Origin: Candidatus Cybelea sp.
GTDB lineage: Bacteria; Vulcanimicrobiota; Vulcanimicrobiia; Vulcanimicrobiales; Vulcanimicrobiaceae
DNA: 64,000 nt
Direction of reading: 5' to 3'
Assembly (NCBI GenBank): GCA_036489315.1
Contig: DASXFZ010000029.1
Location: forward strand, 62,001 to 126,000
The position numbers were made by a program, and so were the translations under genes. The notes beneath the pieces were generated by a model. That model worked only from the letters and a program-made list of their open reading frames with translations, had not been told where the DNA came from and searched no databases. Positions 35,299-56,673 of the stretch are shown here, piece by piece (within the stretch, counting starts at the first letter, position 1; each line of letters opens with the position of its first letter).

Positions 35299-36708
35299 AT
35301 GGAGCCGCGCGCATCCCTACGAGCCGGATCGCTTTCATTCGCCGAGGTGCTCGCGACCTCGATCGCCCTGATCGGGCCGAGCATGACGCCGATCCTGATC
35401 GCCCCATACATGTATGCGCTTGCCGGGAACGGTACGTGGCTTGCCTACGTCTTCGGCGGCACGATGCTGACCTTCGTCGCGCTCTGCATCAACCAATTTG
35501 CGCGGCGTTCGACCTCCGCCGGCTCGCTGTACCACTATGTGGCCGAACACTTGGGGCGCGCGGCCGGCGCAATCGCGGGCTGGGCGGCGATCTGGGCCTA
35601 CGGCTTCGTGGCCGCCGCCGTACTCGGTGCGATGACGCTCTTCCTCGGCTTGCTTTTCGGCTCGACCTCGTGGTCTGCGTTTCTCGTCGTCACCGTCATC
35701 GCGCTGCTCGCGTGGCAAGCCGCGTATCGCGGAGTGCAAGTCTCCGCGCTGGTGATGCTCGTGCTCGAAGTGATCTCGGTCACGGTCATCTCGATTGTCG
35801 TCGTTACCGTGCTGGTCGCCCGGGGACCGTCGCTCGACCTCGCGCAACTGCGAATCGAGGGCGGTTTTCCGGGCGGCGTGGGACTATCGATCGCGTTTGC
35901 GGTCTTCAGCTTCGTCGGCTTTGAGAGCGCCACGGCATTCGGTGCGGAGGCCCGCCGCCCGCTCGTCGCCATACCCCGTGCGGTGATCGGAAGCGTCCTT
36001 TTCGTCGCGGCGTTTTTCGTCATCGCGACCTATGCGGAGATCGTCGGTTTCGCGCACGCCGGCAAACCGCTGGGCGCGGCGACCTTTCCGATGGGAACGC
36101 TCGCCCAGTTATACGGGATTGGATTTCTGCGCGTGCCGATTGCCGCCGGCGCGCTCTGCAGCGCCTTCTCCGTCTGTTTGGCGTGCATCACGACGGCCGG
36201 ACGAATCGCCTATGCGATGGCATCGGCCGGGCTCTTCCCGGCCGTGCTGGCTCGCGTGGAGCCGCGCCACGGAACGCCCAACGTCGCGGTCACGCTTGTA
36301 ACCGCGCTCACGCTGGGGGTCGCCCTGGCCGCGCTGGCCTTGCGCGTGGCGCCGATCGACATCTTCAACAACTGCGGCACGCTCAGCTCGTTTGGATTCA
36401 TTCTCATCTATATGCTGATTGCCGTCGCGGCGCTCGTCTACTGCCGCAAGCTTGGATCGATGCGCGTCGTCGACTTCATCGTCTCGCTGATTGCACTGGG
36501 GCTGCTCGTGCTGACGGCGATCTGGCTCTTCGACTCCGTTCCGGCACCGCCGCAACGCTGGTTCGGATACTACTTCGTCGCGTACTTGGCGGCGGGTGCT
36601 ATCTGGTTTTTGCTTGCCGGCTCACTGAGAGTGCAGCGAGGCGGTAACGACGATCAATCCGCCGGCGACGCTGAGCGCGAAAAAGAAAATAAAAATCCAA
36701 ACGCCTAA
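35299..36708 (+). CDS. APC-family amino acid permease
   Basis: Inner-membrane amino-acid/polyamine/organocation transporter of 469 aa with about 12 TM helices. The family opening SFAEVLATSIALIGPSMTPILIAPYMYALAG is at residues 12-42. SFVGFESATAFGAEARRPLVAIPRAVIGS (TM6 to its loop) is characteristic of APC transporters. A short charged tail (AEREKENKNPNA) ends the protein. Substrate is not predictable; amino acids or polyamines are likely, which would suit the amine catabolic genes further downstream, but they are 9 kb away. It is divergent from the TPM-domain gene and convergent with rsfS. Confidence 0.9.
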   Translation: MEPRASLRAGSLSFAEVLATSIALIGPSMTPILIAPYMYALAGNGTWLAYVFGGTMLTFVALCINQFARRSTSAGSLYHYVAEHLGRAAGAIAGWAAIWAYGFVAAAVLGAMTLFLGLLFGSTSWSAFLVVTVIALLAWQAAYRGVQVSALVMLVLEVISVTVISIVVVTVLVARGPSLDLAQLRIEGGFPGGVGLSIAFAVFSFVGFESATAFGAEARRPLVAIPRAVIGSVLFVAAFFVIATYAEIVGFAHAGKPLGAATFPMGTLAQLYGIGFLRVPIAAGALCSAFSVCLACITTAGRIAYAMASAGLFPAVLARVEPRHGTPNVAVTLVTALTLGVALAALALRVAPIDIFNNCGTLSSFGFILIYMLIAVAALVYCRKLGSMRVVDFIVSLIALGLLVLTAIWLFDSVPAPPQRWFGYYFVAYLAAGAIWFLLAGSLRVQRGGNDDQSAGDAEREKENKNPNA

Positions 36709-42236: not shown

Positions 42237-43556
42237 ATGCATCGCATCTTGGACGACCCGCGTCTTCGCGCGATCGAAGCGGAGGTCGGCCGGGAACGAA
42301 TCAAACGCGCGGCCCAGGACGTCTTGGGCCGCGTTCGTCTTTCCGAGACGGTCGAGTTTGAAGCGATCGTCGCTGCGGTCGTTGAGGCGGCGCGAGAGTT
42401 GCGGCTGGGAAGCCTGCGGCCCGTCGTCAACGCTACCGGGATCCTCATCCATACGAATCTGGGGCGTGCGCCGCTCGGGCGCGACGTGCTGGACTCCGCC
42501 GCCGAGGCCGGCGGCTATTGCAATCTCGAGTTCGACCTTGCGGCCGGCGAGCGCGGCTCGCGCTACGCCGCGCTCGACGCGCTTCTCGCGGAGGTAACCG
42601 GCGCCGGCGGACTCGTCGTCAATAATTGCGCGGCGGCGGTTTTGCTCGTACTCGATACCTTTGCGCGCGGTCGCGAAGTGGTCGTCGCCCGCGGCGAACT
42701 CGTCGAAATCGGCGGCGGCTTTCGGCTTCCCGAGGTGCTCGAGCGCAGCGGCGCGAGGCTCGTCGAGGTCGGCACGACCAATCGCGTCTACCTCGCCGAC
42801 TACGAGCGCGCGCTCTCTCCGCGGACGGGGCTGATCCTGCGAACCCACCCCTCGAACTACCGTATCGAAGGCTTCGTAGCCGCCCCCGATGCGGCGGCGC
42901 TCGCGCAGCTCGGCAAGCGCGTTGGCGTGCCGGTCGTCGAAGATCTCGGCAGCGGGGCGCTGGTCGACCTTGCCGAGTACGGCGTGCCGCACGAACGAAC
43001 GGTAGGTGAAGCGCTCGCCGACGGCCTCGACCTGGTGACGTTTTCCGGCGATAAGCTCCTAGGCGGCCCGCAGGCCGGCATCATCGGCGGGCGGCCGCAA
43101 CTGCTCGCGCGTCTGCAGAACAATCCGCTGTTGCGGGCGCTGCGCCTCGATAAATTGTCGCTCGGCGCGCTCGCCGCGACGCTGGGGTGCTACCGGAACG
43201 CAACGGCGCGCGAGCGGATCCCGATCTACCGGATGCTTTCGGCGACGCTCGCGGAGCTGCGTGCGAGGGCGCACGCTTACGCCGCCGCCGTTTCTTGCGC
43301 AGAAATCGTCGAAACGCGCGGCTATATCGGAGGGGGTGCCCTCCCGCAGGCGAGCATCGCCTCACTCGGAGTGGCGATCCAAACTTCCGACCCGGGGGCC
43401 CTCTGCGCGCGCCTGCGCTGCGGCGAGCCGGCGATCGTGGCGCGCATCGAGCGCGATCGCGTGGTGCTCGACCTGCGGACGATCGCGCCTTCTCAGGACG
43501 ATCGCGTCGTCGCTCGCCTCGCGCAGGAGTTGCCCAGCTTTTCTGACAAGCGTTGA
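42237..43556 (+). CDS. selA: L-seryl-tRNA(Sec) selenium transferase SelA
   Basis: PLP enzyme that converts Ser-tRNA(Sec) to Sec-tRNA(Sec) using selenophosphate. The 439-aa length is typical of bacterial SelA (about 460). Signatures are VVNATGILIHTNLGRAPLG, LVVNNCAAAVLLVL, RGELVEIGGGFRLPEVLERSG and VEVGTTNRVYLADYE. The PLP lysine K273 is in FSGDKLLGGPQAGIIGG. The N-terminal helical domain that contacts tRNA-Sec is short but present. selB lies 11 kb downstream at 54820; selD and the tRNA gene are not in this window. Together these imply UGA is recoded as selenocysteine in this organism. Confidence 0.95.
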   Translation: MHRILDDPRLRAIEAEVGRERIKRAAQDVLGRVRLSETVEFEAIVAAVVEAARELRLGSLRPVVNATGILIHTNLGRAPLGRDVLDSAAEAGGYCNLEFDLAAGERGSRYAALDALLAEVTGAGGLVVNNCAAAVLLVLDTFARGREVVVARGELVEIGGGFRLPEVLERSGARLVEVGTTNRVYLADYERALSPRTGLILRTHPSNYRIEGFVAAPDAAALAQLGKRVGVPVVEDLGSGALVDLAEYGVPHERTVGEALADGLDLVTFSGDKLLGGPQAGIIGGRPQLLARLQNNPLLRALRLDKLSLGALAATLGCYRNATARERIPIYRMLSATLAELRARAHAYAAAVSCAEIVETRGYIGGGALPQASIASLGVAIQTSDPGALCARLRCGEPAIVARIERDRVVLDLRTIAPSQDDRVVARLAQELPSFSDKR

Positions 43557-43586
43557 AGCGTCTTTTTCCGTTGGAGGTTTTTGGAG

Positions 43587-45404
43587 ATGCGTCAAGCAGC
43601 GATTATTCGTTTGGAGGGGAGCGCCGCACTCATTATTGCGTTCGCGCTTTCCGCCTGCGGGGGCCACTCGGCGTTCGATGGAGCCGTTCCGGCAGGGGGG
43701 AACGCGCAGTTACAGCGCGGTCCGCTCTCGCCGGTGCGAAGCACTCAAAACTTGCGCGCGATGATGGTCAAGGGCGGCCTGGAAAGCAACGCTTCACACG
43801 GTGCGGGGTATCCCGTTACGGCCGATCCGCCGGTCTCGCACCCCAACGAAGCCCCTTGTGTTGACAGGCTCTTCAACCCGCACACTCCACCGCTGCAATC
43901 CAGCGGTCTGCCCGTCGGCAAGTTTGCCGACTATAGCGATCACCCGTTCAACTATAAGCCGCCGGCGAACTGTCCGGGGCCGTATGCAAAGATCGTCTTC
44001 AAAATGCATTTCCGGGTGACGGCCGGCGTGCAATTCGACAGGACGGGAGCCGTCTGGATCGGCGCCACGAACGTCTTCTTCGGGACCACCTCCGAGCCCG
44101 GACAGAACGCGAGCCCGCAGTGGGACGTCGAGCGGGACGTCAGCGAGTACGCGCCGATCTTCGCCCAGCCGTCGGTGGGGCAAGCATCGGTCTATAACAT
44201 CGTCAACTCGCAGTACACCGGCATCATTTACGGCACGGCCGAGCTGGATTTCTATCCGGCGACCAAGCAGTTTCCGGCGGCCGCGAGCGCCGACGGCGTC
44301 TATCCGCTCTCTGGCGGACCGAGCGGCGGATACGTCTACCTCGACGCGGCCACCGACCAAATGACCGGTACGTTCACCTTCCCAACCAATGTCCGGGCGG
44401 CCTATTTGGACGTCTTTCTCGAGTCGCAGTCGGGCGACGAGTTTTGGTACACCTGTTTTCCGAACGATCTCGCCGGTAAGCTGCAAAACTGCGGCAATAC
44501 CGCCTTCCGGGAAGGCGAGGTGAGCGTCGACGGACAGCCGGCCGGGGTGGCGCCGATCTATCCGTGGATCTACACGGGCGGCATCGATCCGTATTTATGG
44601 ATCCCAATCCCCGGCGTCGAAACGTTGAACTTCAAGCCCTACCGTATCGACCTGACGCCGTTCGCGGCGCAGCTCGACGACGGAAATCCGCATACGATCG
44701 CGGTCTCGGTCTTCAACGACGACAACTACTTCGCGGCAAACGCGGCGCTGCTCGTTTATGAAGACCACGGCTCCACGCAAGTCACGGGCGGGCTGATCGA
44801 GAACGGGACGGCGTTCTCGCCGGCAGAGAAAGTAGCCGAACACGTGCGCTTCGACAAGTCCGGCAACGCCAGCGGAACGATCGACGTCTCGGCGACGCAC
44901 CCGGTCAGTCTGCGGGGTTACGTCAACACGTCCAAGGGCCGCGTCACGACGTCGGTGACGCAAAGCATCGCCTTCTCCAACTTTCAGCGCATCAACGATA
45001 CCTCGAGTCAGTTTCTGCAGAACATCAAGCAGAACACCACGATCACCTCGAATACGATGACGTCGACGCGCGGCAAGCGCCTTCGGGCGCAGAGCCAGTG
45101 GACCTATCCGTTCGACGTTCGCTACAACTACGTCGTAAAGAGCGGCGCGGCAACCCAGACGACCGACGTCTTGCAGACTAAGAGCGGCAGCGGGCTCGAT
45201 CAAACCCGCAGCAAGGCATCATCCTGGTCGTCGCTCAACAACCTGCACTCGTACGACGTTCTGAACATCCACGGGAGCAACGCCTCGCCGTCGAACGCCA
45301 AGAGCCGCCAACAGTACAAATCGCTCAACGTTGACGGCGGATGCTATGAGGAGACGCTCAAATCGCTGCTTAACGTCTTGACGAGTAAGCTGAAGGGCTG
45401 CTAA
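43587..45404 (+). CDS. PNGase A-like lipoprotein (peptide-N4-asparagine amidase A family)
   Basis: 605-aa exported protein with a lipoprotein signal (IIAFALSAC, lipobox near residue 24). The middle matches peptide:N-glycanase A of plants and fungi: CPGPYAKIVFKMHFRVTAG, QFDRTGAVWIGATNVFFGTTSEP and WDVERDVSEYAPIF. IVNSQYTGIIYGTAELDFYPA and TLNFKPYRIDLTPFAAQLDDG continue the match. That family removes N-linked glycans from Asn, including core-fucosylated plant glycans. A second C-terminal beta domain (about 420-605) completes it. ATG 43587 is chosen because GGAGG lies 9 bases upstream; a TTG at 43581 adds two residues. It is monocistronic, between selA and the convergent aldehyde dehydrogenase gene. 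Confidence 0.82.
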   Translation: MRQAAIIRLEGSAALIIAFALSACGGHSAFDGAVPAGGNAQLQRGPLSPVRSTQNLRAMMVKGGLESNASHGAGYPVTADPPVSHPNEAPCVDRLFNPHTPPLQSSGLPVGKFADYSDHPFNYKPPANCPGPYAKIVFKMHFRVTAGVQFDRTGAVWIGATNVFFGTTSEPGQNASPQWDVERDVSEYAPIFAQPSVGQASVYNIVNSQYTGIIYGTAELDFYPATKQFPAAASADGVYPLSGGPSGGYVYLDAATDQMTGTFTFPTNVRAAYLDVFLESQSGDEFWYTCFPNDLAGKLQNCGNTAFREGEVSVDGQPAGVAPIYPWIYTGGIDPYLWIPIPGVETLNFKPYRIDLTPFAAQLDDGNPHTIAVSVFNDDNYFAANAALLVYEDHGSTQVTGGLIENGTAFSPAEKVAEHVRFDKSGNASGTIDVSATHPVSLRGYVNTSKGRVTTSVTQSIAFSNFQRINDTSSQFLQNIKQNTTITSNTMTSTRGKRLRAQSQWTYPFDVRYNYVVKSGAATQTTDVLQTKSGSGLDQTRSKASSWSSLNNLHSYDVLNIHGSNASPSNAKSRQQYKSLNVDGGCYEETLKSLLNVLTSKLKGC

Positions 45405-45413
45405 GCCGCCGCG

Positions 45414-46955
45414 TCAGCGGTCGCTGAACCAGCCCGACGGCGCGACGTCGAGGTTGACGTTGATCTGTTTGACCTCGGTATACGCGTCGTAGCCATAAGT
45501 TCCAAGCTCGCGCCCGATGCCCGACTGCTTGTAGCCGCCCCAGGGTGCCTCGTTATAGGTCGGGTGGTACGTGTTGATCCACGTGATGCCGGCGCGCAGC
45601 TTGCGAATAACGCGGTGCGCCTTGGCGATGTCTTCCGTGAAGACGGCGCCGGCCAACCCATAGATCGTGTCGTTGGCGACGGCAATCGCTTCCGCTTCGT
45701 CGGCGAAGGTTTGCACGACCAGCACGGGGCCAAAAATTTCCTCGGCGACGATCCGCATCTGCGGCGATGTCTGATCGAAGATCGTCGGAGCGATGAAGTT
45801 CCCCGCGGCGAGCTCACCGCCGAGCCGTTCGCCGCCGCAGAGAAGCTTCGCGCCTTCCCCGACGCCGGCGGCGATGTAGGCCTCGACGCGTTCGCGATGG
45901 ACCGGCGAGATAATCGGTCCCATCTCGGTCTGCGGATCGAAGCCGTCACCGACGCGAATCTTGCGCGCTCGTTCGACAAGCCGCTCCAGGAAACGGTCGT
46001 GCAGCGATCGCTCGATCACCAAGCGCGAGCCGGCCGAACAGACTTGCCCGGCGTTGGCGTAGATCCCGAAGAGCGCGTAGTCGATCGCCGTATCGAAATC
46101 GGCGTCGGCGAAGACGACGTTGGGGGACTTGCCGCCGAGCTCGAGCGAGATCTTTTTCAGATTCGACGTTGCGGCTTGCATGATGCTGCGGCCGGTCTGC
46201 GTCCCGCCGGTAAAGGCGATCTTGTCGACGAGCGTACTGGCGGCCAGCGCATTGCCGGCAATCGCACCCGCGCCGGTGACGACGTTGACGACGCCGCGCG
46301 GAAATTCGAGCTCCTCGAAAATCGCCGCGAGGCGGATCGCCGAGAGGGGCGTTAACTCGGAGGGTTTGAGGATGCAGACGTTGCCCGCGGCGAGCGCCGG
46401 AGCCAGCTTCCAAACCGCCATGAGCAGCGGATAGTTCCAAGGAACGATCTGCCCGCAGACGCCGATCGGCTCGCGGACGGTAAATGTTTGCGAGGGTGCC
46501 GGCACGTCGAACGTTTGTCCGTGCGGTTTTGTCGCCAGGCCGGCGTAATAACGAAAGCAGTTGGCCGCGTCGACGGCGTCGTACTCGGTCTCGCGCAGAG
46601 GCTTTCCGTTGTTGAGCGTGTCGATGCGCGTGAACTCGTCGCGGTGCGCGTCGATCGCATCGGCCACTTTGAAGAGCAGCGCCGCGCGATCGGCGGCGCT
46701 CGTCGATCCCCAGGGGCCTTGGTCGAAGGCTTTGCGCGCGGCCTCGATCGCGCCTTGCACGTCCTCCGTCCCCGCTTCGGCGATCGTCGCGATCTTTTGA
46801 CCGTTCGAGGGATTGAAGAGGTCGCGCGTCGCGCCGCTGCGCGCCGGCCGCCATTCGCCGTCGACGTACATCGGAATGACGCCGTCGACGCCGGGCAGGT
46901 GCGCGAGAATCGACTCGGGATCGACCGGAGAGTTCGCCGTTACTTGCATCGTCAT
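45414..46955 (-). CDS. NAD(P)-dependent aldehyde dehydrogenase (aminobutyraldehyde/betaine type)
   Basis: 513-aa ALDH superfamily enzyme. The catalytic residues are E272 in LELGGKSPN and C306 in GQVCSAGSR; FTGGTQTGRSIM is the coenzyme region and the C-terminus carries the APWGGYKQSGIGRELG motif. The closest style is betaine-aldehyde or 4-aminobutanal dehydrogenases (PuuC/PatD/BetB type). As last gene of an operon with two class III aminotransferases, the best guess is oxidation of 4-aminobutanal to 4-aminobutyrate. A 27-base gap separates it from the patA-like gene upstream. Confidence 0.9.
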   Translation of the reverse strand: MTMQVTANSPVDPESILAHLPGVDGVIPMYVDGEWRPARSGATRDLFNPSNGQKIATIAEAGTEDVQGAIEAARKAFDQGPWGSTSAADRAALLFKVADAIDAHRDEFTRIDTLNNGKPLRETEYDAVDAANCFRYYAGLATKPHGQTFDVPAPSQTFTVREPIGVCGQIVPWNYPLLMAVWKLAPALAAGNVCILKPSELTPLSAIRLAAIFEELEFPRGVVNVVTGAGAIAGNALAASTLVDKIAFTGGTQTGRSIMQAATSNLKKISLELGGKSPNVVFADADFDTAIDYALFGIYANAGQVCSAGSRLVIERSLHDRFLERLVERARKIRVGDGFDPQTEMGPIISPVHRERVEAYIAAGVGEGAKLLCGGERLGGELAAGNFIAPTIFDQTSPQMRIVAEEIFGPVLVVQTFADEAEAIAVANDTIYGLAGAVFTEDIAKAHRVIRKLRAGITWINTYHPTYNEAPWGGYKQSGIGRELGTYGYDAYTEVKQINVNLDVAPSGWFSDR

Positions 46956-46982
46956 CGTCTCTTTCTGTAGGGCCGTACGCCT

Positions 46983-48371
46983 CTACGATGCGTTCGACGT
47001 GGGAACCGGTTGCGGTTCCATGCTGGCGAGGCTCTCGCCCAGCGCGCGACAGACGTAATCCGCCTCGTCTTGCGTGATCGTCAGCGGGGGTTCGACCCGA
47101 ATTACTCGGGCGTTCACGAGCGTCCCGGAGACCAGCACGCCTCGATCGAGCATTCGCTTGCCGAGCTCGAATCCGGTCGCGTCGTCGTGAAACTCGAGCG
47201 CGATGAGCAAGCCCTTTCCGCGCACGCTCGCGACGAGGCCCGCGTGCGGCTGCACGGCGGTGCGAATTCCCGCAAGCAGGCGCTCTCCCAGCCGCGCCGC
47301 GCGCTGCGGAAGCTGTTCCTCGATGAGCACGTTGATCGTCGCCAGCGCCGCGGCGCAGGCGAGCGGATTTCCGCCGAACGTCGACGTGTGCAGGAACGGA
47401 TTGTCGAACAGGCGCGAGAATACTTCGCGCCGCCCGACGACCGCGCCGGCCGGCACGACGCCGCCGCCGAACGCCTTCGCCAGGCACATTAGATCGGGGG
47501 CGATACCGTAGTGCTCGCAGCAGAACATCTTGCCCGTGCGCCCCATGCCCGTCTGCACTTCGTCCAAAATGAAGAGCGAACCAAATTCGTCGCAGAGCGC
47601 GCGGACGCCGGGAAGATAGTCGTCATCGGGGATGTTTACGCCGCCCTCGCCTTGGATCGGTTCCAAGAGGACGGCGCCGACGTCCTCGCCGACCGCGCGG
47701 CACGAGGTCATCATGTCGCGCAGCGCGGGAAGGTCGTTGAACGGCACGTGCTCGATGTTGGGCAGCATCGGCCCGAACGGGCGGCGGAACTCCGCTTTCG
47801 CGCTGGCCGAGAGCGAGCCGTAGCTCTTGCCGTGAAATCCCTTCGTTGCCGCGACGATCGTCTGCTTTGTCGGATCGTAGGCGCGCGCGAGTTTGAGCGC
47901 ACCTTCGACCGCTTCGGTTCCGCTGTTGCAGAAGAAGCTGAAGTCGAGTTCTCCGGGCGTCAGCATCGAGAGCGTTTTGGCGAGCATCGCGCGCAGCGGA
48001 TCGAGCAGATCCTGGCTGTGCAGCGGCTGACGCCGCAGCTGATCGGTTACCGCTTTGACGACTTTGGGATGGCGGTGGCCGACGTTGAAGATCCCGAAGC
48101 CGCCCAAACAATCGAGGTAGCGGCGTCCGTAGACGTCGCGATAGGAGTTCGGGCCGGCGTCGGCCCACTCGACAACGGCGCCGGCCTCGCGTGCGTCGGT
48201 CGCCTTGCGGTATTCCAGGAATCCGGGGTTGACGTGATCGCGAAACCCCTCGACGGTCTCGCGCGTGATCCACGCGGCCTCCTCGGGGCCGACTTCGATG
48301 TTTTCGATCAGCGCGAGAACGCGCTGCGAGTATTCGTAGGCGCGGCGTTCGCGTTGCTCGGAAGAGCTCAC
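46983..48371 (-). CDS. patA: Putrescine aminotransferase (PatA/YgjG-like)
   Basis: Class III PLP aminotransferase of 462 aa that transfers the amino group of putrescine to 2-oxoglutarate. The match to E. coli PatA is unusually strong by eye: HVNPGFLEYRKA, YLDCLGGFGIFNVGHRHPKVV, QPLHSQDLLDPLRAMLAKTL, and PFLHTSTFGGNPLACAAALATINVL. The PLP lysine is K299 in CLAKAFGGGVVP and DEVQTGMGRTG is intact. Start ATG 48371 overlaps the stop of the upstream aminotransferase gene by 4 bases. With the downstream dehydrogenase it makes 4-aminobutanal and then GABA. Confidence 0.9.
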   Translation of the reverse strand: MSSSEQRERRAYEYSQRVLALIENIEVGPEEAAWITRETVEGFRDHVNPGFLEYRKATDAREAGAVVEWADAGPNSYRDVYGRRYLDCLGGFGIFNVGHRHPKVVKAVTDQLRRQPLHSQDLLDPLRAMLAKTLSMLTPGELDFSFFCNSGTEAVEGALKLARAYDPTKQTIVAATKGFHGKSYGSLSASAKAEFRRPFGPMLPNIEHVPFNDLPALRDMMTSCRAVGEDVGAVLLEPIQGEGGVNIPDDDYLPGVRALCDEFGSLFILDEVQTGMGRTGKMFCCEHYGIAPDLMCLAKAFGGGVVPAGAVVGRREVFSRLFDNPFLHTSTFGGNPLACAAALATINVLIEEQLPQRAARLGERLLAGIRTAVQPHAGLVASVRGKGLLIALEFHDDATGFELGKRMLDRGVLVSGTLVNARVIRVEPPLTITQDEADYVCRALGESLASMEPQPVPTSNAS

Positions 48372-49621
48372 GCCGCGAAGACCTCCGCGGCGGCGTCGCG
48401 GAGCGCTTCTAGGCCTTCGTCGAGCTCGGCGTCCGTCACGACCAAGGGCACGAGAATGCGAATGACGTTGCTCTGCCCGGCAAGCAGCACGATGAGCCCT
48501 CTCCGGCGCGCGGCCTCGAGAATTTGCGGCGCGCCCGACGAGAGTTCCATCGCCATCATCGCACCCAGGCCGCGAACGTCGAGGATTTGCACGTGGCTCG
48601 ACTGCAGGCCGCGCAGCGCGGATTCGATGCGCGCCCCGATCGCGCGGGCTCGCTCCAAAAAGCGCTCATCCATGATCTCGAAGATCTCCAGTGCCGCCGC
48701 GCAGGCAACCGGATTTCCGGCGAAGGTGCCGCCCAATCCGCCCGGCTCCGGCGCGTCCATGATCTCGGCCTTTCCGACGACTGCGGCGAGCGGAAGCCCA
48801 CCGCCCAGCGTCTTTGCGACCGTCATCAAGTCGGGCTCGATGCCGTAGTGCTCGCAGGCGAAGAGCCGGCCGGTCCGGCCGAAGCCCGTTTGAATCTCGT
48901 CGACGACGAAAACGATTCCGTGCTGCGCCGTAATACGTCGCAGCTCGTGCAGAAAGGCGGCGGGTGCCGGGAGGAAACCGCCTTCGCCGAGGACCGGTTC
49001 GACGATCATCGCCGCCACACGATCGGCGGAGACGACGCCGTCGAAGATCTCGGCGAGGGCTCGCAGTGCATCCTCGGTCGTCACGCCGTGGCGAAGACTG
49101 GGAAACGGCGCGTGGTAGATCTCGCTGCAAAATGGCCCGAAGTGCTGCTTGTACGGCGCGTTCTTACCGGTCATCGTCAGCGCTAGGAGCGTGCGTCCGT
49201 GGTAACCGTGCGTGAAGGCGATCACCGCCGGCCGTCGAGTGTACTCGCGCGCGATCTTGACGGCGTTCTCGGTCGCCTCGGCGCCGGTGGAGAGCAGCAG
49301 CGACTTTTTGGGCGAAGTGCCGGGGGCGCGGCGATTGAGCTCCTCGGCGACTCGGAGATACGGCTCGTACATCGCCACCTGGAAGCACGTGTGCGTGAAC
49401 CGCTGCGCCTGCTCCGCGATGGCCGCGACCACCCGTGGGTTGGCGTGCCCGGCGTTGAGCGTGCCGATGCCGCCGGCGAAGTCGAGGTATCGCCGGCCCT
49501 CGGCGTCCCAGAGCGTCGCTCCGCTCGCGCGCTGCACCCAGATCGGATGCGCCGTAGCGACGCCGCGCGCGACGTTTTGCGCGCGCCGCTGCGAGAGAGA
49601 AAGTTTCGTTGCGGTGTTCAA
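48368..49621 (-). CDS. Class III aminotransferase, 4-aminobutyrate (GABA)-type
   Basis: 417-aa PLP enzyme from TTG 49621. Features are HPIWVQRASGATLWDAEGRRYLDFAGGIGTLNAGH, AMIVEPVLGEGGFLPAP, VVDEIQTGFGRTGRLFACEH and the PLP lysine K270 in VAKTLGGGLPLAAVVG, all typical of GABA/5-aminovalerate transaminases (GabT/PuuE). The frame stays open to 49699, but that would overlap the divergent TonB-receptor start, so the TTG right before the conserved part is preferred; no Shine-Dalgarno sequence is visible, and a leaderless message is possible. First gene of the gabT-like/patA/ALDH operon. Confidence 0.88.
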   Translation of the reverse strand: MNTATKLSLSQRRAQNVARGVATAHPIWVQRASGATLWDAEGRRYLDFAGGIGTLNAGHANPRVVAAIAEQAQRFTHTCFQVAMYEPYLRVAEELNRRAPGTSPKKSLLLSTGAEATENAVKIAREYTRRPAVIAFTHGYHGRTLLALTMTGKNAPYKQHFGPFCSEIYHAPFPSLRHGVTTEDALRALAEIFDGVVSADRVAAMIVEPVLGEGGFLPAPAAFLHELRRITAQHGIVFVVDEIQTGFGRTGRLFACEHYGIEPDLMTVAKTLGGGLPLAAVVGKAEIMDAPEPGGLGGTFAGNPVACAAALEIFEIMDERFLERARAIGARIESALRGLQSSHVQILDVRGLGAMMAMELSSGAPQILEAARRRGLIVLLAGQSNVIRILVPLVVTDAELDEGLEALRDAAAEVFAA

Positions 49622-49693
49622 AGCGAGGAAGTTATATTCGGCATATGTAAAGGCGCTCTTCCTTAGTCTGCTGGAGGCCATTGGGGGAGGCAC
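49622..49693. promoter_or_regulatory. Divergent promoter region of the amine catabolic operon and TonB receptor
   Basis: About 72 bases separate the TTG of the GABA transaminase gene (minus) from the GTG of the TonB receptor gene (plus). It contains the AT-rich stretch GTTATATTCGGCATATG near 49630-49646, the lowest-GC piece of the area and a likely -10 region. GGGAGG precedes the receptor GTG. No operator repeat was recognised. Confidence 0.4.
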
Positions 49694-52600
49694 GTGCACA
49701 AGCGAATCGTCGCGTTCGTCGTCCTGGCGGTGGTTGCCATGCCCTTCGGAGCGAGAGCGGGAACGACTGGGACCCTGCGCGGCCGAGTGATCGACGCGAC
49801 GACCCGGGCTCCCCTCGCCGGAGTGGCGGTCAGTGCGGTTGCGCCGTCGCAGACGGCGCAGACGGTCTCGGACGCTTCGGGCTCCTATTCGTTTATCTCG
49901 CTTCAGCCCGACACGTACACGGTGAGCGCGAGCAAATCCGGATACGATTCGCTCTCCCAGCCAGGCGTAACCGTCATCGCCGACCAGTCGACCACGGTCG
50001 CGCTGGCGCTGCAGAAGACGCTGCAGACGATCGCGCGGACGACCTCACGTTCCGCACAGTCGCTGGTTCATTCCGGCGTGACGAGCGACGTTTTTTCGAT
50101 CAACCCGACGGGTCAAAGGGCCGCCTCGACGCTCTCGGGCTCGGGTTCGCTCACGCAAGCCTACGGCGCGATTGCGAGCGCACCCGGCGTCAACATCCCT
50201 TCCAACCAACAGGGTTGGTATCAGAGCGTTTACGTTCGCGGCGGCGACGTCGATCAGGTTGCTTATGAGTTCGACGGATTGCCGACGACCCGGCAATCGG
50301 ATCTCGCGCCGATCGCAACGCTGACGTCGCTGGGCAATCAGGAGGTGCAGGTCTACACGGGCGGCACGCCCGCGACTTCGAACTCCTCGGGCCTGGCCGG
50401 CTACATCAATCAAGTCATCAAGACCGGAACCTTCCCGGGCTATGCAACGGCGGACTTCGGTATCGGCGGACCGGCGTACTACCATCAGGCGACCGTCGAA
50501 GCCGGCGGCGCGACGCCCGATCGCATGTTCTCGTACTACGTTGGGCTTTCGGGAACGAATCAGACGTTTCGCTACGGCGACCAGTTCGGCGGGGTCAGCC
50601 AGCCGTTGTACTTCTATCCGCTCAACGTCCCGACGAACAACAACGTCTACAATATCCTCGACGGCTCGGCCGGCCGATATCCCAACTACGGGTTCATCGC
50701 GCAGCCCGGCTACGGCTACACGCAAGCGTATGATGCCGACCGGGAGAACGTCGTCAACTTTCACATCGGCATCGCGCACCGCGACTCGCCCCTGCGCGAC
50801 GACATTCAACTGCTCTACGTCACGGGCGGGATCGGCGCGCAGTTCTACAGCTCCGCCAACGACATCGGCTACACGCCGCTGGTCGGCAAGCGCACCGGCA
50901 TCGGCTATCCGATGCCGTACCTCGATTCGCTCTACTACGGCGGCCCGCTAATGAAGACGCCAAACCAAAGCGACGTCATCATCGGCGACTTTCCGAGCAG
51001 CCCGACGGGCCGGGCGCCGGGATCGCCGGTGGGGGTGAACGATCGCGACGGAAACTACAACGGCTATTCGATCGAAAAGTTTCAGTACCAAAAAAACTTC
51101 GACTCCCGCTCGTATCTGCGAGCGCTCGTTTACGGTGAGTATTCGCGCTGGTTCATCAACGGGCCCGACAGCGCTCAGCTGGTCTTCGGTTCGGATCCGG
51201 CCGACTACGAAGTCCTCGAGCATGGCTACGGTGCCGGCCTGATTTATTCAAATCAGCTCTCGGCGCAGCACCTGCTTACCGCCGAAGCTTCGTATACGAC
51301 GCAGAAGCTGCAGACCTATAACGCCGGCTTCAGCTCGACCGATCCGTTTACGAGCAGCCGCGCACCTACGGGGCTCGGAACGATTCTCTCGAGCTACGGG
51401 ACGCCGAACGGCAAGTGCTACAACTACAAGACTGGCCAGCCGTGGAGCTGTTTCGATGCCGGCAGCCAGGGCGGCTGCCTCTCGCCGGCCGGATGCTATC
51501 CCGGCGAAGGCTCCTACCGTTTCAACCTGACGCCGGGCGAGGCGCCCGCGAATACCCCCGCCGCGCGCGCCGGCGCTCGCTGGATGATGACCGAGAACGG
51601 CGTGAGCGCTCAGGTCGACAACGTAACGCCTCGCTTCGCTTCGGCGGCGCTCACGGACGTTTGGGAACCCAACGACCGGATCGTCGTCAACATCGGCGCG
51701 CGTTTCGACCGCTTCGCCTACGACACCAACAATCTGGAGGATGGCTACCCGGCGCGGCAGTTTTGGTTCGATGCATACAACGACGAGCATTGCGGCACGC
51801 TGGGATCGCAGCCGCAGTGGACGTGGAACGCAAAGAGCGGCTCGTTCGGTGCGTGCGCCCCCGGCCTTTCCCCGATGACGCAGCCGGGCAACGGGCTCTA
51901 TAACACCGGTGCGGGCGAAGACGTATCTAACGTCTTCGCGCCGCGCGCTTCGTTTACGTACACGATCAACCCCGATACGGTGATTCGCGGCTCCGCCGGG
52001 CGTTACGCACGGGCCGAAGGCTCGTCGTACTACCAGTACAACACCTATCAGCAGAACCTCGCGTCCTTTATCTCGCAGTTCTACCCGTACGGCTACCACA
52101 CGCCCGACCACGATATCTCTCCGGATACGTCGGATAACTTCGACCTCTCGCTCGAAAAGCACGTCAAAGGCACGCAGCTCTCGTTCAAGGTCACGCCGTT
52201 CTATCGCAATACGCGCAACGAGCTGCAGTTCCAGGCGATCAACGCCGTACAGGGAACCCTCGCCGGCCTCAACGTCGGAACGCAACGCTCCTACGGCGCC
52301 GAGTTTTCGCTGCAGTACGGCGACTTCAGCCGAAACGGCATCTCCGCAATTTTCTCCTACACGCATACGGAGAACCAGATCCGCTACAGCCCGATCAACG
52401 GCGTGAGCGTCATCGACGCGCTCAACTCGCAGATCGCCCTCTATAACTCCTACACGTCGGCCTGCGCCCACGTGACGCGAAGCTCCGCGAACTGGCAGGC
52501 GTGCGGGAGCGGCGCGAATCCCGGCAACGCCAGGCCCGTGCTGCGCAATACGCAATCGGGTACGGGCGATCAAGGGAAGCTCCAGGTACCCAACCCGTAC

Positions 52601-53254
52601 TATCGCGGCGCGCTGCAGCCGCTCTTCGATACGAACGGATGGTACGCGCCCTACGACGTGATTCCGAGCCCGTTCAATGCTGCCAACGGTTACGAGGTGC
52701 CCGACGTCGCCTCGCTGATCCTCAACTACCGGCACGGCCGGTTCGCGGTAACGCCTTCGCTGCACTACGCCGACGGTTCGAACTACGGATCGCCGCTGGT
52801 CTGGCCCGGCTACGTGCCGCAGTCGTGCTCGGCGCAGCCGGCGAAGACGCCGCTGGCTCCGGGCAGCAGCTGCTCCGGCGGCGCGGCCGGCGCGATCTTC
52901 CTGCCCGATCCATACAGCGGAAAGTTCGACAATCTCGGCGCCTTCATTCAGCCGGCGGAGCTCACGCTGAACCTGCAGACGAGCTACGATTTCTCTTCAC
53001 GCGTGACGCTGACGGTGCAGGCCGTCAATATCTACAATCAGTGCTACCAGCGCGGCTTTGCCTGGGACAACACGGTAACGTGCGTCTACTCGAACCTGCC
53101 CTCGAACATCTTGGCGCCCGCCGGCAACTTCCTCAAGAATCCGCCTCAGCAGCTGCGCTACCCGTACGGCACGTTTTTCAACATCACCGAAGTCGGCATC
53201 TCGTCGGTGCTTCAACCCTTCGGCTTTTTCGCGGATCTGAGCGTAAAGATCTAA
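49694..53254 (+). CDS. TonB-dependent outer-membrane receptor with carboxypeptidase-regulatory-like domain
   Basis: 1186-aa outer-membrane receptor. It starts at GTG 49694 with GGGAGG upstream and a signal peptide ending near residue 22 (FGARAG). Residues 24-105 form a CarboxypepD_reg-like beta sandwich (GTLRGRVIDATTRAPLAGVAVSAV, SYSFISLQPDTYTVSASKSGYDS). A plug domain follows (LTQAYGAIASAPGVNI, SVYVRGGDVDQVAYEFDGLPT, SLGNQEVQVYTGGTPA), and the rest is a beta-barrel rich in Tyr and Asn ending FFADLSVKI. No classic TonB box was pinned down. It is divergent from the amine catabolic operon and upstream of an amine oxidase, so an amine-containing or peptide ligand is a reasonable guess. Confidence 0.9.
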   Translation: MHKRIVAFVVLAVVAMPFGARAGTTGTLRGRVIDATTRAPLAGVAVSAVAPSQTAQTVSDASGSYSFISLQPDTYTVSASKSGYDSLSQPGVTVIADQSTTVALALQKTLQTIARTTSRSAQSLVHSGVTSDVFSINPTGQRAASTLSGSGSLTQAYGAIASAPGVNIPSNQQGWYQSVYVRGGDVDQVAYEFDGLPTTRQSDLAPIATLTSLGNQEVQVYTGGTPATSNSSGLAGYINQVIKTGTFPGYATADFGIGGPAYYHQATVEAGGATPDRMFSYYVGLSGTNQTFRYGDQFGGVSQPLYFYPLNVPTNNNVYNILDGSAGRYPNYGFIAQPGYGYTQAYDADRENVVNFHIGIAHRDSPLRDDIQLLYVTGGIGAQFYSSANDIGYTPLVGKRTGIGYPMPYLDSLYYGGPLMKTPNQSDVIIGDFPSSPTGRAPGSPVGVNDRDGNYNGYSIEKFQYQKNFDSRSYLRALVYGEYSRWFINGPDSAQLVFGSDPADYEVLEHGYGAGLIYSNQLSAQHLLTAEASYTTQKLQTYNAGFSSTDPFTSSRAPTGLGTILSSYGTPNGKCYNYKTGQPWSCFDAGSQGGCLSPAGCYPGEGSYRFNLTPGEAPANTPAARAGARWMMTENGVSAQVDNVTPRFASAALTDVWEPNDRIVVNIGARFDRFAYDTNNLEDGYPARQFWFDAYNDEHCGTLGSQPQWTWNAKSGSFGACAPGLSPMTQPGNGLYNTGAGEDVSNVFAPRASFTYTINPDTVIRGSAGRYARAEGSSYYQYNTYQQNLASFISQFYPYGYHTPDHDISPDTSDNFDLSLEKHVKGTQLSFKVTPFYRNTRNELQFQAINAVQGTLAGLNVGTQRSYGAEFSLQYGDFSRNGISAIFSYTHTENQIRYSPINGVSVIDALNSQIALYNSYTSACAHVTRSSANWQACGSGANPGNARPVLRNTQSGTGDQGKLQVPNPYYRGALQPLFDTNGWYAPYDVIPSPFNAANGYEVPDVASLILNYRHGRFAVTPSLHYADGSNYGSPLVWPGYVPQSCSAQPAKTPLAPGSSCSGGAAGAIFLPDPYSGKFDNLGAFIQPAELTLNLQTSYDFSSRVTLTVQAVNIYNQCYQRGFAWDNTVTCVYSNLPSNILAPAGNFLKNPPQQLRYPYGTFFNITEVGISSVLQPFGFFADLSVKI

Positions 53255-53264
53255 GGAACGCTGT

Positions 53265-54806
53265 TTGAAGCGACGCGACTTCGTTACACGGGCCGGTGCC
53301 GCCGCGGCCGGCGCCGCCGGCCTTCCTCGTTTTACCGCTTTTGCGAGCTCGGCGGCACGCGACCGCGAGAAGGTCGTGATCGTCGGCGCAGGGATCGCCG
53401 GGCTAACCGCGGCGCTGCGCTTGCGCGACGCCGGCATCGAGGCGACCCTCTACGACTCTGCCGCCCGCGTGGGCGGCCGGATGCACTCCGAGCGGCACTA
53501 CTGGAGCGAGGGACAGCACACGGAGTGGTGCGGCGCAATGGTCGACTCGACGCACGAAAACATTCGCGGCCTCGCCCGGCGTTTTGCCTTGCCGCTGCTC
53601 GACACGTACTCCGGGCGACCGCCGCGCGCGCGCGACACATGCTTCCTGAGCGGGCGCTACTACTCGATGGCCGATGCAGACCGCGACTTCGCCGGCGTCT
53701 ATCCGATTCTGCAGGCCCAGCTCGCACAGGTCGACCCGACGACGACCTACGCAAACGCGACCCCAACCGCGCGCCGGCTCGACGCGATGAGCATGCGCGA
53801 TTGGATCGTGCATTACGTTCCCGGAGGGCTCGGCAGCCAGCTCGGGCGCTTGATAAAAGAGGCGTACCGCAACGAGTACGGCCGGGAGATCGAAGAGCTC
53901 AGCGCGCTCAATCTGGTGCTGCAGCTCGGGCAGCAGCGCACCTACGCGCAGGCGCGCGAGATGAACGTCCTCGGATACTCCGATCAGCGTTACATCTTGG
54001 CCAACGGCAGCCAGGCGCTGCCCGAAGCGATCGCCGCATCGCTGCCGCCCGGCAGCATCCGCCTCGAGCGCCGGCTCGTCGGCATCGAGAAGGCGGACTA
54101 CGGCCTCTACGTACTCTATTTCCGGCATCGCGGTCTGCGCCAGATCGTCTACGCGGACCGCGTCGTGCTCGCGATACCGTTCATCGCGCTGCGCGCGGTC
54201 GATTATTCCGGCGCCGGCTTCGACGGTGCGAAGATCAACGCGATCGAGAATCTCGGGTACGGCTTTCACACGAAGCTGCACCTGCAGTTCGATCGACGAG
54301 CCTGGATGCGGCAGAATCATCCGTGGCCGCAACCCGCGAGCGGGCAGATCTGGACGACGCTGCGCGTCCAAAGCGCGCTGGATTTCTCGCTGGGGCAGCG
54401 GGGGCGCGACGGCCTCATCGAGGTCTTTACCGCCGCGTCGCCCGCGATGGTCGATACGCCCCCCAAGCCGTATTCGCGAATTGAAGACTCGCCGGCGGTG
54501 GCCTGGCACGTGCGCGACTTTTTCACGCAGCTCGAACGGATTTGGCCCGGGGTCGCATCCACCTGGACCGGCAAAGCCACCTTTGGCAACGCACAGGCCG
54601 ACCCGAACATTTTGGCCAGCTATTCCTGCTGGCTCGTCGGTCAGTGCACGACGATCGCCGGGCACGAGGCACGCGCGCAGGGCCGCGTTCATTTCGCCGG
54701 CGAGCACACCTCGGTGGAGTATCAAGGCTTCATGGAGGGCGGGGCACAGTCGGGATTGCGGGCCGCGGACGAAATCCTGGCGGACTACCGCATTCGGAGT
54801 CGCTAA
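53265..54806 (+). CDS. Flavin amine oxidase with Tat signal
   Basis: 513-aa FAD-containing amine oxidase (MAO/putrescine oxidase/L-amino-acid oxidase superfamily). TTG 53265 is preceded by AAGGAA, and the N-terminus KRRDFVTRAGAAAAGAAG is a twin-arginine signal, so the folded flavoprotein is probably exported. The FAD motif is VVIVGAGIAGLTAALRLRDAG near residue 37, with ARVGGRMHSE after it and the C-terminal VHFAGEHTSVEYQGFMEGGAQSGLRAADEI. The substrate could be putrescine or another primary amine, which fits the neighbouring transaminases. It starts 10 bases after the TonB receptor stop, and selB starts 13 bases after its own stop, so these may share a transcript. Confidence 0.9.
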   Translation: MKRRDFVTRAGAAAAGAAGLPRFTAFASSAARDREKVVIVGAGIAGLTAALRLRDAGIEATLYDSAARVGGRMHSERHYWSEGQHTEWCGAMVDSTHENIRGLARRFALPLLDTYSGRPPRARDTCFLSGRYYSMADADRDFAGVYPILQAQLAQVDPTTTYANATPTARRLDAMSMRDWIVHYVPGGLGSQLGRLIKEAYRNEYGREIEELSALNLVLQLGQQRTYAQAREMNVLGYSDQRYILANGSQALPEAIAASLPPGSIRLERRLVGIEKADYGLYVLYFRHRGLRQIVYADRVVLAIPFIALRAVDYSGAGFDGAKINAIENLGYGFHTKLHLQFDRRAWMRQNHPWPQPASGQIWTTLRVQSALDFSLGQRGRDGLIEVFTAASPAMVDTPPKPYSRIEDSPAVAWHVRDFFTQLERIWPGVASTWTGKATFGNAQADPNILASYSCWLVGQCTTIAGHEARAQGRVHFAGEHTSVEYQGFMEGGAQSGLRAADEILADYRIRSR

Positions 54807-54819
54807 GGACCGATTCGCG

Positions 54820-56673
54820 ATGCACGTGATCGGGACGGCAGGACACGTCGATCATGGAAAATCGGCGATCGTTGCCGCGCTGACCGGTACGAATCCCGAC
54901 CGCTTAGCGCAAGAGCGCGAGCGCGGCATGACCCTCGATCTCGGCTTCGCGCACCTGCGCTTTGCTGACGGCGTGGAAGGCGGAATCGTCGACGTGCCCG
55001 GTCACGAACGCTTCCTGCACAACATGCTCGCCGGAGCGGCCGGGATGGAGATTCTTCTGCTCGTCGTCGACGCCGTTGAAGGCGTCAGAGCGCAGACGCT
55101 CGAGCACCTCGCGATCCTTCGCTACCTCAATGTCCGCCGCACGATCGTCGTCGTCAACAAGATCGACCTGATCGAACCCGCGGATCGCGACGACGCCTGC
55201 CGGCGCATCCTGGCGCAACTGCAGGCCACGGTTGCGCGGGACGCGCCCTACTTTGCGGTCTCGGCGGTCACCGGCGAAAACGTGCAATCGCTCAAAGACG
55301 CGCTGCACGAGTTGCTCGCGGAGATGCCCGGCCGCAACGCAGAAGCGCCCGTTTATCTGCCGATCGATCGCGTCTTTTCGTTGACGGGACTGGGCACGGT
55401 CGTTACCGGTACGCTGATACAAGGCAGCATCGAAGCGGGTGACGCGCTGCGGGTGGAACCGGGCGGACACGCCGCCGCGGTGCGCAGCATCGGCGTCTTT
55501 GGATCGGTTCGCCCGCGCGCCGAAGCGGGTTCGCGCGTCGCGCTGAGCATTCCGGGAATCGACCATCGCGAGATCGTGCGCGGTCAAGCCGTCGTGGGAA
55601 CGGAGTTTGCGGCCGCGACGGATTTTGCGGTTCGCTTTACGCCGGCGCGGGGTGCGGCCGCATTCATGCGCCGGCGCACGCCGGTGCGCGCGTACATCGG
55701 CTCGGCGGAACGGCTCGGAGTACTGGTCGCCGGCGAGCCGTATGCCGACGAGGCGGAGACGCCGGCCCGGCTGCATCTGCGCGAGCCGGTGGTTGCATTT
55801 GCGGGCGTGCGGTTCGTCGTGCGCCGTCCGTCGCCGATGACGCTGCTCGGCGGCGGTTACGTCGAAGGAGCGGGACGCGGCGAAGCGCCCGAGGCGGAGG
55901 ACCCCGACGACGCCTTGCTCGCGCGCATCTTGCAGGCGCGCGGGCTCGAACCGGCGACTGCGCTCGAGCTCTCCGCCGCCGCGAACGTGCGCGAAGCGGC
56001 AACGGCGGCTGCGCTCGCGCGCTTAGTCGAGCACGGCGACGTGCTTGCGCTCGATAAACCGCGCGCCTACGTCTCGGGCTCAGCCGCCGGCACGCTGCTC
56101 GCAAGCGTCTTGGCGCAGCTCGACGAAGCGCAGCGGGCCGAGCCGTGGTCGATGGGAATGACCTCGATCGCGCTCTCGCGGGCGCTCGACGTCTCCGAGG
56201 GCGTGCTCGTGCGCGTCCTCGAGCACTTTGCCGATGACGGGCGCCTGGTCAATCGTCGCGGTTACTACGCGACGCTCGAGTACCAGCCGGCGCTGACGCT
56301 CGAGCAGCGAGCCTTCTTCGACCATTTGGTTCCGCTCGACGAAGGGCAACCGTTCGTTCCGATTCCGTTCGCCGGCGTCGCCGCGGCGGTGAAGACTTCG
56401 CGCTTGCCCGGCATCGCGAAGGCGTTCGACACGATGCTGGCCCGCGGTACGCTCGTGAAGGTCGGCGACGACCTCTATCGCGGCGCGCAGATCGGGCGGA
56501 TCGTGGCGAGCGTTCGCAGCTATCTCGAAAAGAACGGCACGATGACCGCCGCGCATTTCCGCGATCTGCTCGGAAGCTCGCGAAGATACGCCGTTCCGCT
56601 GTTGGAATGGCTGGACGCGCAGGGGGTGACGATTCGCAGCGGCGATCGGCGCGTGCTGCGCAAGCAACTCTAG
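54820..56673 (+). CDS. selB: Selenocysteine-specific elongation factor SelB
   Basis: GTPase that carries Sec-tRNA(Sec) to UGA codons next to a SECIS hairpin. From ATG 54820 it is 617 aa, typical for bacterial SelB. G1 is GTAGHVDHGKSAIVAALTG at the N-terminus; RERGMTLDLGFAHL (switch I), DVPGHERFLHNMLAGA and NKIDLIEP follow. Domain II has IDRVFSLTGLGTVVTGTLIQG. The C-terminal half consists of winged-helix domains that read the SECIS (WH4 ends SSRRYAVPLLEWLDAQGVTIRSGDRRVL). The longer open frame upstream overlaps the amine oxidase gene and is not SelB-like. It pairs functionally with selA at 42237. Confidence 0.95.
   Translation: MHVIGTAGHVDHGKSAIVAALTGTNPDRLAQERERGMTLDLGFAHLRFADGVEGGIVDVPGHERFLHNMLAGAAGMEILLLVVDAVEGVRAQTLEHLAILRYLNVRRTIVVVNKIDLIEPADRDDACRRILAQLQATVARDAPYFAVSAVTGENVQSLKDALHELLAEMPGRNAEAPVYLPIDRVFSLTGLGTVVTGTLIQGSIEAGDALRVEPGGHAAAVRSIGVFGSVRPRAEAGSRVALSIPGIDHREIVRGQAVVGTEFAAATDFAVRFTPARGAAAFMRRRTPVRAYIGSAERLGVLVAGEPYADEAETPARLHLREPVVAFAGVRFVVRRPSPMTLLGGGYVEGAGRGEAPEAEDPDDALLARILQARGLEPATALELSAAANVREAATAAALARLVEHGDVLALDKPRAYVSGSAAGTLLASVLAQLDEAQRAEPWSMGMTSIALSRALDVSEGVLVRVLEHFADDGRLVNRRGYYATLEYQPALTLEQRAFFDHLVPLDEGQPFVPIPFAGVAAAVKTSRLPGIAKAFDTMLARGTLVKVGDDLYRGAQIGRIVASVRSYLEKNGTMTAAHFRDLLGSSRRYAVPLLEWLDAQGVTIRSGDRRVLRKQL

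Follow-up and report, generated by a model that had tools for sequence, protein, structure and literature searches.

A conserved, probably co-functional amine locus with a TonB-dependent receptor and a putatively exported flavin amine oxidase in Eremiobacterota

Within the 64,000-nucleotide stretch of Candidatus Cybelea DNA analyzed here (the window), five genes form two divergent arms: a minus-strand trio encoding a putrescine aminotransferase-type protein (PatA), a GabT-type aminotransferase and an aldehyde dehydrogenase (ALDH), and a plus-strand pair encoding a TonB-dependent receptor (TBDR) and a flavin amine oxidase (FAO). This cassette is conserved across many genera and two families, and the arrangement is not a chance neighborhood. 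The coupling of the two arms is well supported, and the whole is probably a conserved, co-functional amine locus. On balance, we favor a function in (poly)amine uptake and catabolism, most likely of putrescine/spermidine-like compounds or their conjugates, with both substrate and transport being presumed. Polyamine as the substrate is moderately supported, and active amine import by the TBDR is a step that we only infer.

The window belongs to a 3.1-Mb metagenome-assembled genome of the Eremiobacterota (WPS-2) that is 95% complete; among named genomes, the closest were MAGs of Candidatus Eremiobacterota. Eremiobacterota are a little-known and mostly uncultured phylum of nutrient-poor soils. 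If the reading is true, a conserved amine locus equipped with a receptor in the outer membrane would reveal the way in which these bacteria subsist on scarce nitrogen compounds, and TonB-dependent receptors would be known for a broader range of substrates. The locus also offers a concrete receptor-oxidase pair for assay.

Organization of the locus

The minus arm consists of the GabT-type class III aminotransferase gene (48368..49621), the patA gene (46983..48371) and, as third gene, that of a BADH/aminobutyraldehyde dehydrogenase-like ALDH (45414..46955). The plus arm carries the genes of the 1186-aa TBDR (49694..53254) and of the FAO (53265..54806), the latter with a Tat-type RRDF N-terminus. 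The open reading frames were found again with the spacing given in the earlier note, namely a 4-base overlap between patA and gabT, a 27-base gap between patA and the ALDH gene and 10 bases between the TBDR and FAO genes. The Pfam assignments agreed with this layout, being Aldedh (PF00171) for the ALDH, Aminotran_3 for both aminotransferases, CarboxypepD_reg, plug and TonB β-barrel for the TBDR, and Amino_oxidase (PF01593) for the FAO. We regard the five genes as real because orthologues share the layout at 42-80% FAO identity.

The GabT reading frame is open to 49699. The gene probably starts at the TTG at 49621, since orthologues align from about residue 27, and on that start the two arms diverge from a single 72-bp intergenic region, in line with the divergence noted earlier. 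Inside this region lies a 34-bp block (49632..49665). Eight of the nine tested loci of the genus matched it at 28-33 of its 34 positions and the ninth (L057) at 22, scores that are partly due to construction because the consensus came from the same sequences. The best match in 11 other loci reached 19-20/34, and shuffled sequence gave 18-21. The block would fit a control region shared by both arms and is a candidate promoter or operator. In genus g1, which has this block, the gene of the PucR regulator described below is missing.

The minus arm is preceded by gyrA and selA (42237-43556), with a PNGase A domain gene (43581-45404; PF12222, 183 bits) between selA and the ALDH gene. The latter product belongs to the peptide N-glycanase family, and no labeled relative was seen at that place in the loci of the annotated relatives. 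On the opposite side, the ATG of selB (54820..56673, plus strand) lies 13 bp past the FAO stop, so the plus arm may continue into selB, a gene that is probably outside the amine function. selB neighbors the cassette in many of the loci L047-L065. That the TBDR-FAO pair is merely inserted between selA and selB was considered and rejected because g10, g25, g28-g31 and g33, where selB was unlabeled on the stretch, and the second family introduced below all keep the cassette.

Conservation of the cassette

The earlier note had suggested searching the genome context for the same divergent pair. We have run this search, and the pair recurs across the order and in a second family of the class. Of the 103 genomes available for the order, 33 gave an FAO orthologue in a protein search (E ≤ 1e-110), a count that does not represent independent events, given the kinship among the genomes. 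Thirty-one of these loci were fetched and annotated, the window being the 32nd and a 3-kb contig (G017, locus L036) the 33rd. The TBDR gene directly adjoined the FAO gene in 30/33 genomes. As to the three exceptions, the contig ends just before the FAO gene in L059, L070 keeps the PatA arm, its gabT and FAO genes standing back to back without an intervening TBDR gene, and the TBDR gene is about 6 kb away in L071.

In 23 of the 33 genomes, the GabT-PatA arm was seen in divergent orientation on the FAO stretch. In G029 the PatA arm sits on a separate contig (L123) among other neighbors, in G089 patA is on the FAO contig outside the fetched stretch, and the eight remaining loci are interrupted by contig ends. 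The lack of an adjacent TBDR in L070 and the arms on different contigs in G029 were counted against the polyamine reading. PatA orthologues (E ≤ 1e-120) were likewise found in 33 of the 103 genomes, 32 of which also have the FAO. The FAO occurred without PatA in G019 only, at a contig edge, and PatA without the FAO in G046 only, where ALDH-PatA-GabT diverge from a PucR gene and a TBDR gene (L125, which ends inside the latter). These figures bear out the proposal that both arms belong to a single conserved locus.

When 149 genomes of the phylum were searched with a profile, 48 had an FAO match at E ≤ 1e-60, and 12 of these belong to the second family of the class. The TBDR gene adjoined the FAO gene in nine of these 12, the GabT arm being divergent in six, and in the other three the FAO gene lies at a contig end. 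The outgroup branches of the FAO tree are very long, and the tree was not relied on for strict orthology of the FAOs of the second family. In two more distant genomes, G133 and G138 (L099 and L098), no TBDR label was found near the FAO. Around the distant FAO relatives within the order (about 34-37% identity; L078-L085, n = 8), the cassette is absent; in one of them, L078, a TBDR gene (31% identity) lies two genes away.

Family assignment of the enzymes

PatA exceeded one NCBIfam equivalog cut-off (NF008570, 674.2 vs. 612) and fell under a second one (TIGR03372, 607.8 vs. 658.65). The GabT-type protein, scored with the over-long start, missed the TIGR00700 cut-off by 0.05 bit (506.60 vs. 506.65). 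The ALDH was under every equivalog cut-off shown, both for the best NCBIfam model, BADH (618.8 vs. 668.6), and for the aminobutyraldehyde dehydrogenase models TIGR03374 (381.0 vs. 909.3) and NF010000 (491.8 vs. 615). The trio had been described as a full putrescine-to-succinate-semialdehyde route. The PatA step stands on NF008570, and the word "full" overstates the case because the ALDH and GabT are below their cut-offs and no SSADH above cut-off was found in the genome.

Like the E. coli PatA, PatD/YdcW and GabT route, the trio, here in one run of genes, combines a PatA of the NF008570 family, an ALDH and a GabT-type enzyme. It differs in its ALDH, which falls outside the aminobutyraldehyde dehydrogenase equivalogs of TIGR03374. 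To our knowledge, the E. coli putrescine transaminase/GABA route has no TBDR, exported oxidase or PucR.

The FAO scored 144 bits against a PF01593 cut-off of 19.8. Its export is predicted from the N-terminus (MKRRDFV in the window, with only one Arg in some relatives), and TatC is encoded in the genome. An AlphaFold2 model from 25 sequences had a pLDDT of 86.3, residues 1-30 (the signal region) being mostly below 50. The best structural matches, tied at Z = 38.3-39.3, were MAO-A (39.3), putrescine oxidase and cyclohexylamine oxidases. Residues 33-513 of the model adopt the MAO fold also found in Rhodococcus putrescine oxidase, cyclohexylamine oxidase, MAO-A/B and NicA2-type enzymes (Z = 35-39), from which the FAO differs by its Tat-type N-terminus and its place beside a TBDR. 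Lys337, invariant in 25/25 rows, sits where MAO and polyamine oxidases have their catalytic lysine. Identity to the solved oxidases listed is only about 20%, and the nearest solved proteins by sequence are L-amino-acid oxidases (LAAO). These points, like the tie of putrescine oxidase with enzymes of other substrates, count against the polyamine reading, and the modeled fold and the sequence together leave the FAO substrate unfixed.

These data have to be weighed against a co-functional locus for another amine, such as a monoamine, cadaverine, an amino-acid derivative or a small peptide, with PatA and GabT acting on related omega-amino compounds. The closeness of the FAO to L-amino-acid oxidases, the tie among MAO, cyclohexylamine and putrescine oxidases, the ALDH scores and a paralogous receptor in a hut locus all agree with it. 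However, PatA is over a putrescine aminotransferase equivalog cut-off, and in the HMMER alignment the FAO lacks the Arg of the LAAO GAMR motif, which presumably binds the substrate carboxylate. The window has Met there, and Arg occurs at this site in 0/25 rows. We consider another amine possible and rather unlikely.

The TonB-dependent receptor and its paralogues

The TBDR exceeded the Pfam cut-offs for the plug (PF07715, 28.3 vs. 23.9) and the barrel (PF00593, 49.6 vs. 27). Its AlphaFold2 model from 22 sequences had a mean pLDDT of 52, and a comparison with PDB sequences gave 0 matches at E ≤ 0.01. The genome encodes about ten TBDR paralogues and two ExbD. In a receptor tree of 58 rows, every locus-linked TBDR, from both families, fell into one 42-row clade (99% SH-like), which also holds L111-L114 and L116, with no FAO locus alongside on the stretch read, and the L071 receptor.

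The earlier note had asked whether the receptor clusters with peptide or sugar transporters. The TBDRs of the locus form one clade instead, and the selected annotated neighbors of the paralogues bore no signature of a sugar or peptide transporter. One paralogue (L104, 4089-11132 on contig C55 of the same genome) sits between hutU and hutH, both above their cut-offs, which suggests that this receptor is linked to histidine use. Another (L111) adjoins a DAO-type oxidase that is nearest to pipecolate oxidase and under its cut-off. An amidohydrolase (L112), a sulfatase (L107) and an AT62-type aminotransferase (L116) are further neighbors, and those of L105, L108, L113, L115, L118 and L120 have no clear catabolic link.

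Such TBDRs are numerous in the genome and stand next to varied genes, which, together with the receptor-less L070 locus, could mean that the TBDR imports an unrelated ligand, e.g., a siderophore, and is joined to the amine genes by operon position only. Against this, the TBDR-FAO adjacency holds in 30/33 genomes of the order and 9/12 of the second family with differing outer flanks, and a single receptor clade tracks the locus. An unrelated ligand therefore seems improbable to us.

In SusCD-type polysaccharide utilization loci, a TBDR likewise stands next to catabolic enzymes. The present locus resembles them in its CarboxypepD_reg TBDR beside catabolic enzymes and in the regulator found in relatives, and departs from them in that SusD and glycoside hydrolases are absent among the labeled genes of the cassette, whose enzymes are predicted to act on amines. 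By analogy with sugar utilization loci, the TBDR might be an active importer of polyamines or conjugates that, with the periplasmic oxidase, makes up a "polyamine utilization locus" within a wider TBDR set of the phylum, some members of which lie beside amino-acid catabolic genes. We put this forward tentatively. Porins can admit molecules as small as free polyamines, and the lack of an obvious need for a TBDR was counted against the polyamine reading.

Additional genes in relatives and proposed pathway

In many relatives, a PucR-type regulator gene (PF07905, GGDEF_2, HTH_30) lies between gabT and the TBDR gene. It was present in 4/4 searched genomes of other genera and was not found in the six searched genomes of the genus of the window, the latter being counted against the polyamine reading. 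An APC-family permease gene follows the FAO gene in many relatives' loci. The window encodes a permease 41% identical to it (35347..36708, plus strand), about 13 kb away, which is a possible candidate for the inner-membrane step.

In three g31 genomes and one g24 genome, the locus also has an NF004718 aminotransferase together with a dehydrogenase of the MMSDH type, the latter over its cut-off (TIGR01722, 656.7 vs. 448.5). G014, G023 and G045 have a 46-49% identical MMSDH relative 9-13 kb from the ALDH gene, and the best matches of the MMSDH query in G000, G009 and G010 were about 30-35% identical. This β-alanine-type arm is not universal among the relatives, which also counts against the polyamine reading. 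Spermidine cleavage requires a C4 arm plus a C3 arm, and the two arms of some relatives would fit such a cleavage.

For a polyamine locus, the pathway might run as follows. The amine would most likely be spermidine or another polyamine, or a conjugate of one. The TBDR would carry it through the outer membrane, and the Tat-exported FAO would oxidize or cleave it in the periplasm. The APC permease would import the diamine or amino-acid products. PatA, ALDH and GabT could then convert the C4 part via GABA to succinate semialdehyde, and in several relatives the second aminotransferase and the MMSDH-type enzyme could process the C3 part as β-alanine. The earlier proposal of uptake and periplasmic amine oxidation thus holds as regards one conserved locus, to which the relatives add PucR and APC genes, and stays presumptive as regards amine import and the FAO reaction. 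Exported oxidases of this fold can also serve in detoxification or signaling (H2O2, aldehyde) instead of supplying carbon and nitrogen, a role that is very improbable here, given that amino-acid permeases and a catabolic arm in the cytosol constantly accompany the FAO.

Relation to described systems

According to the passages on these regulons in Leyn et al. (2016, PMC5343134), TBDRs have been predicted in HutC regulons of Caulobacterales and Sphingomonadales and in the HypR regulon of Alteromonadales. TBDRs that serve small nitrogen compounds have thus been predicted before. Those regulons share with the present locus an outer-membrane TonB-dependent transporter tied to the catabolism of a small nitrogen compound. 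They concern histidine and hydroxyproline/proline in Proteobacteria, whereas here an amine/GABA pathway and a putatively exported oxidase are found in another phylum. Among the papers listed on TBDRs with polyamine, amine oxidase or amino-acid use, we found no description of a polyamine TBDR, which is weak evidence of absence, and nothing specific among those on Eremiobacterota and on PucR with polyamine. A term search of the Vulcanimicrobium alpinus paper (PMC9758169) returned "polyamine" once, in an APC superfamily name in a figure legend, and no match for "putrescine," "spermid-" or "TonB."

A second Pfam "amine oxidase" beside a paralogous TBDR of the same genome (L101, 6538-11822, the two genes overlapping) was considered as a parallel case. 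It was dropped because the nearest NCBIfam model is the CrtO carotenoid ketolase (306 bits, below the cut-off of 1000), and the protein is better described as a CrtO-like FAD enzyme of the carotenoid ketolase/desaturase type. Directly before this TBDR lies the gene of a large sortilin/VPS10-BNR repeat protein (L101, 3641-6550), and the same trio, judged by gene sizes, occurs in G014 (L121). Another large sortilin/VPS10-BNR repeat protein is encoded in the window at 31200-34187.
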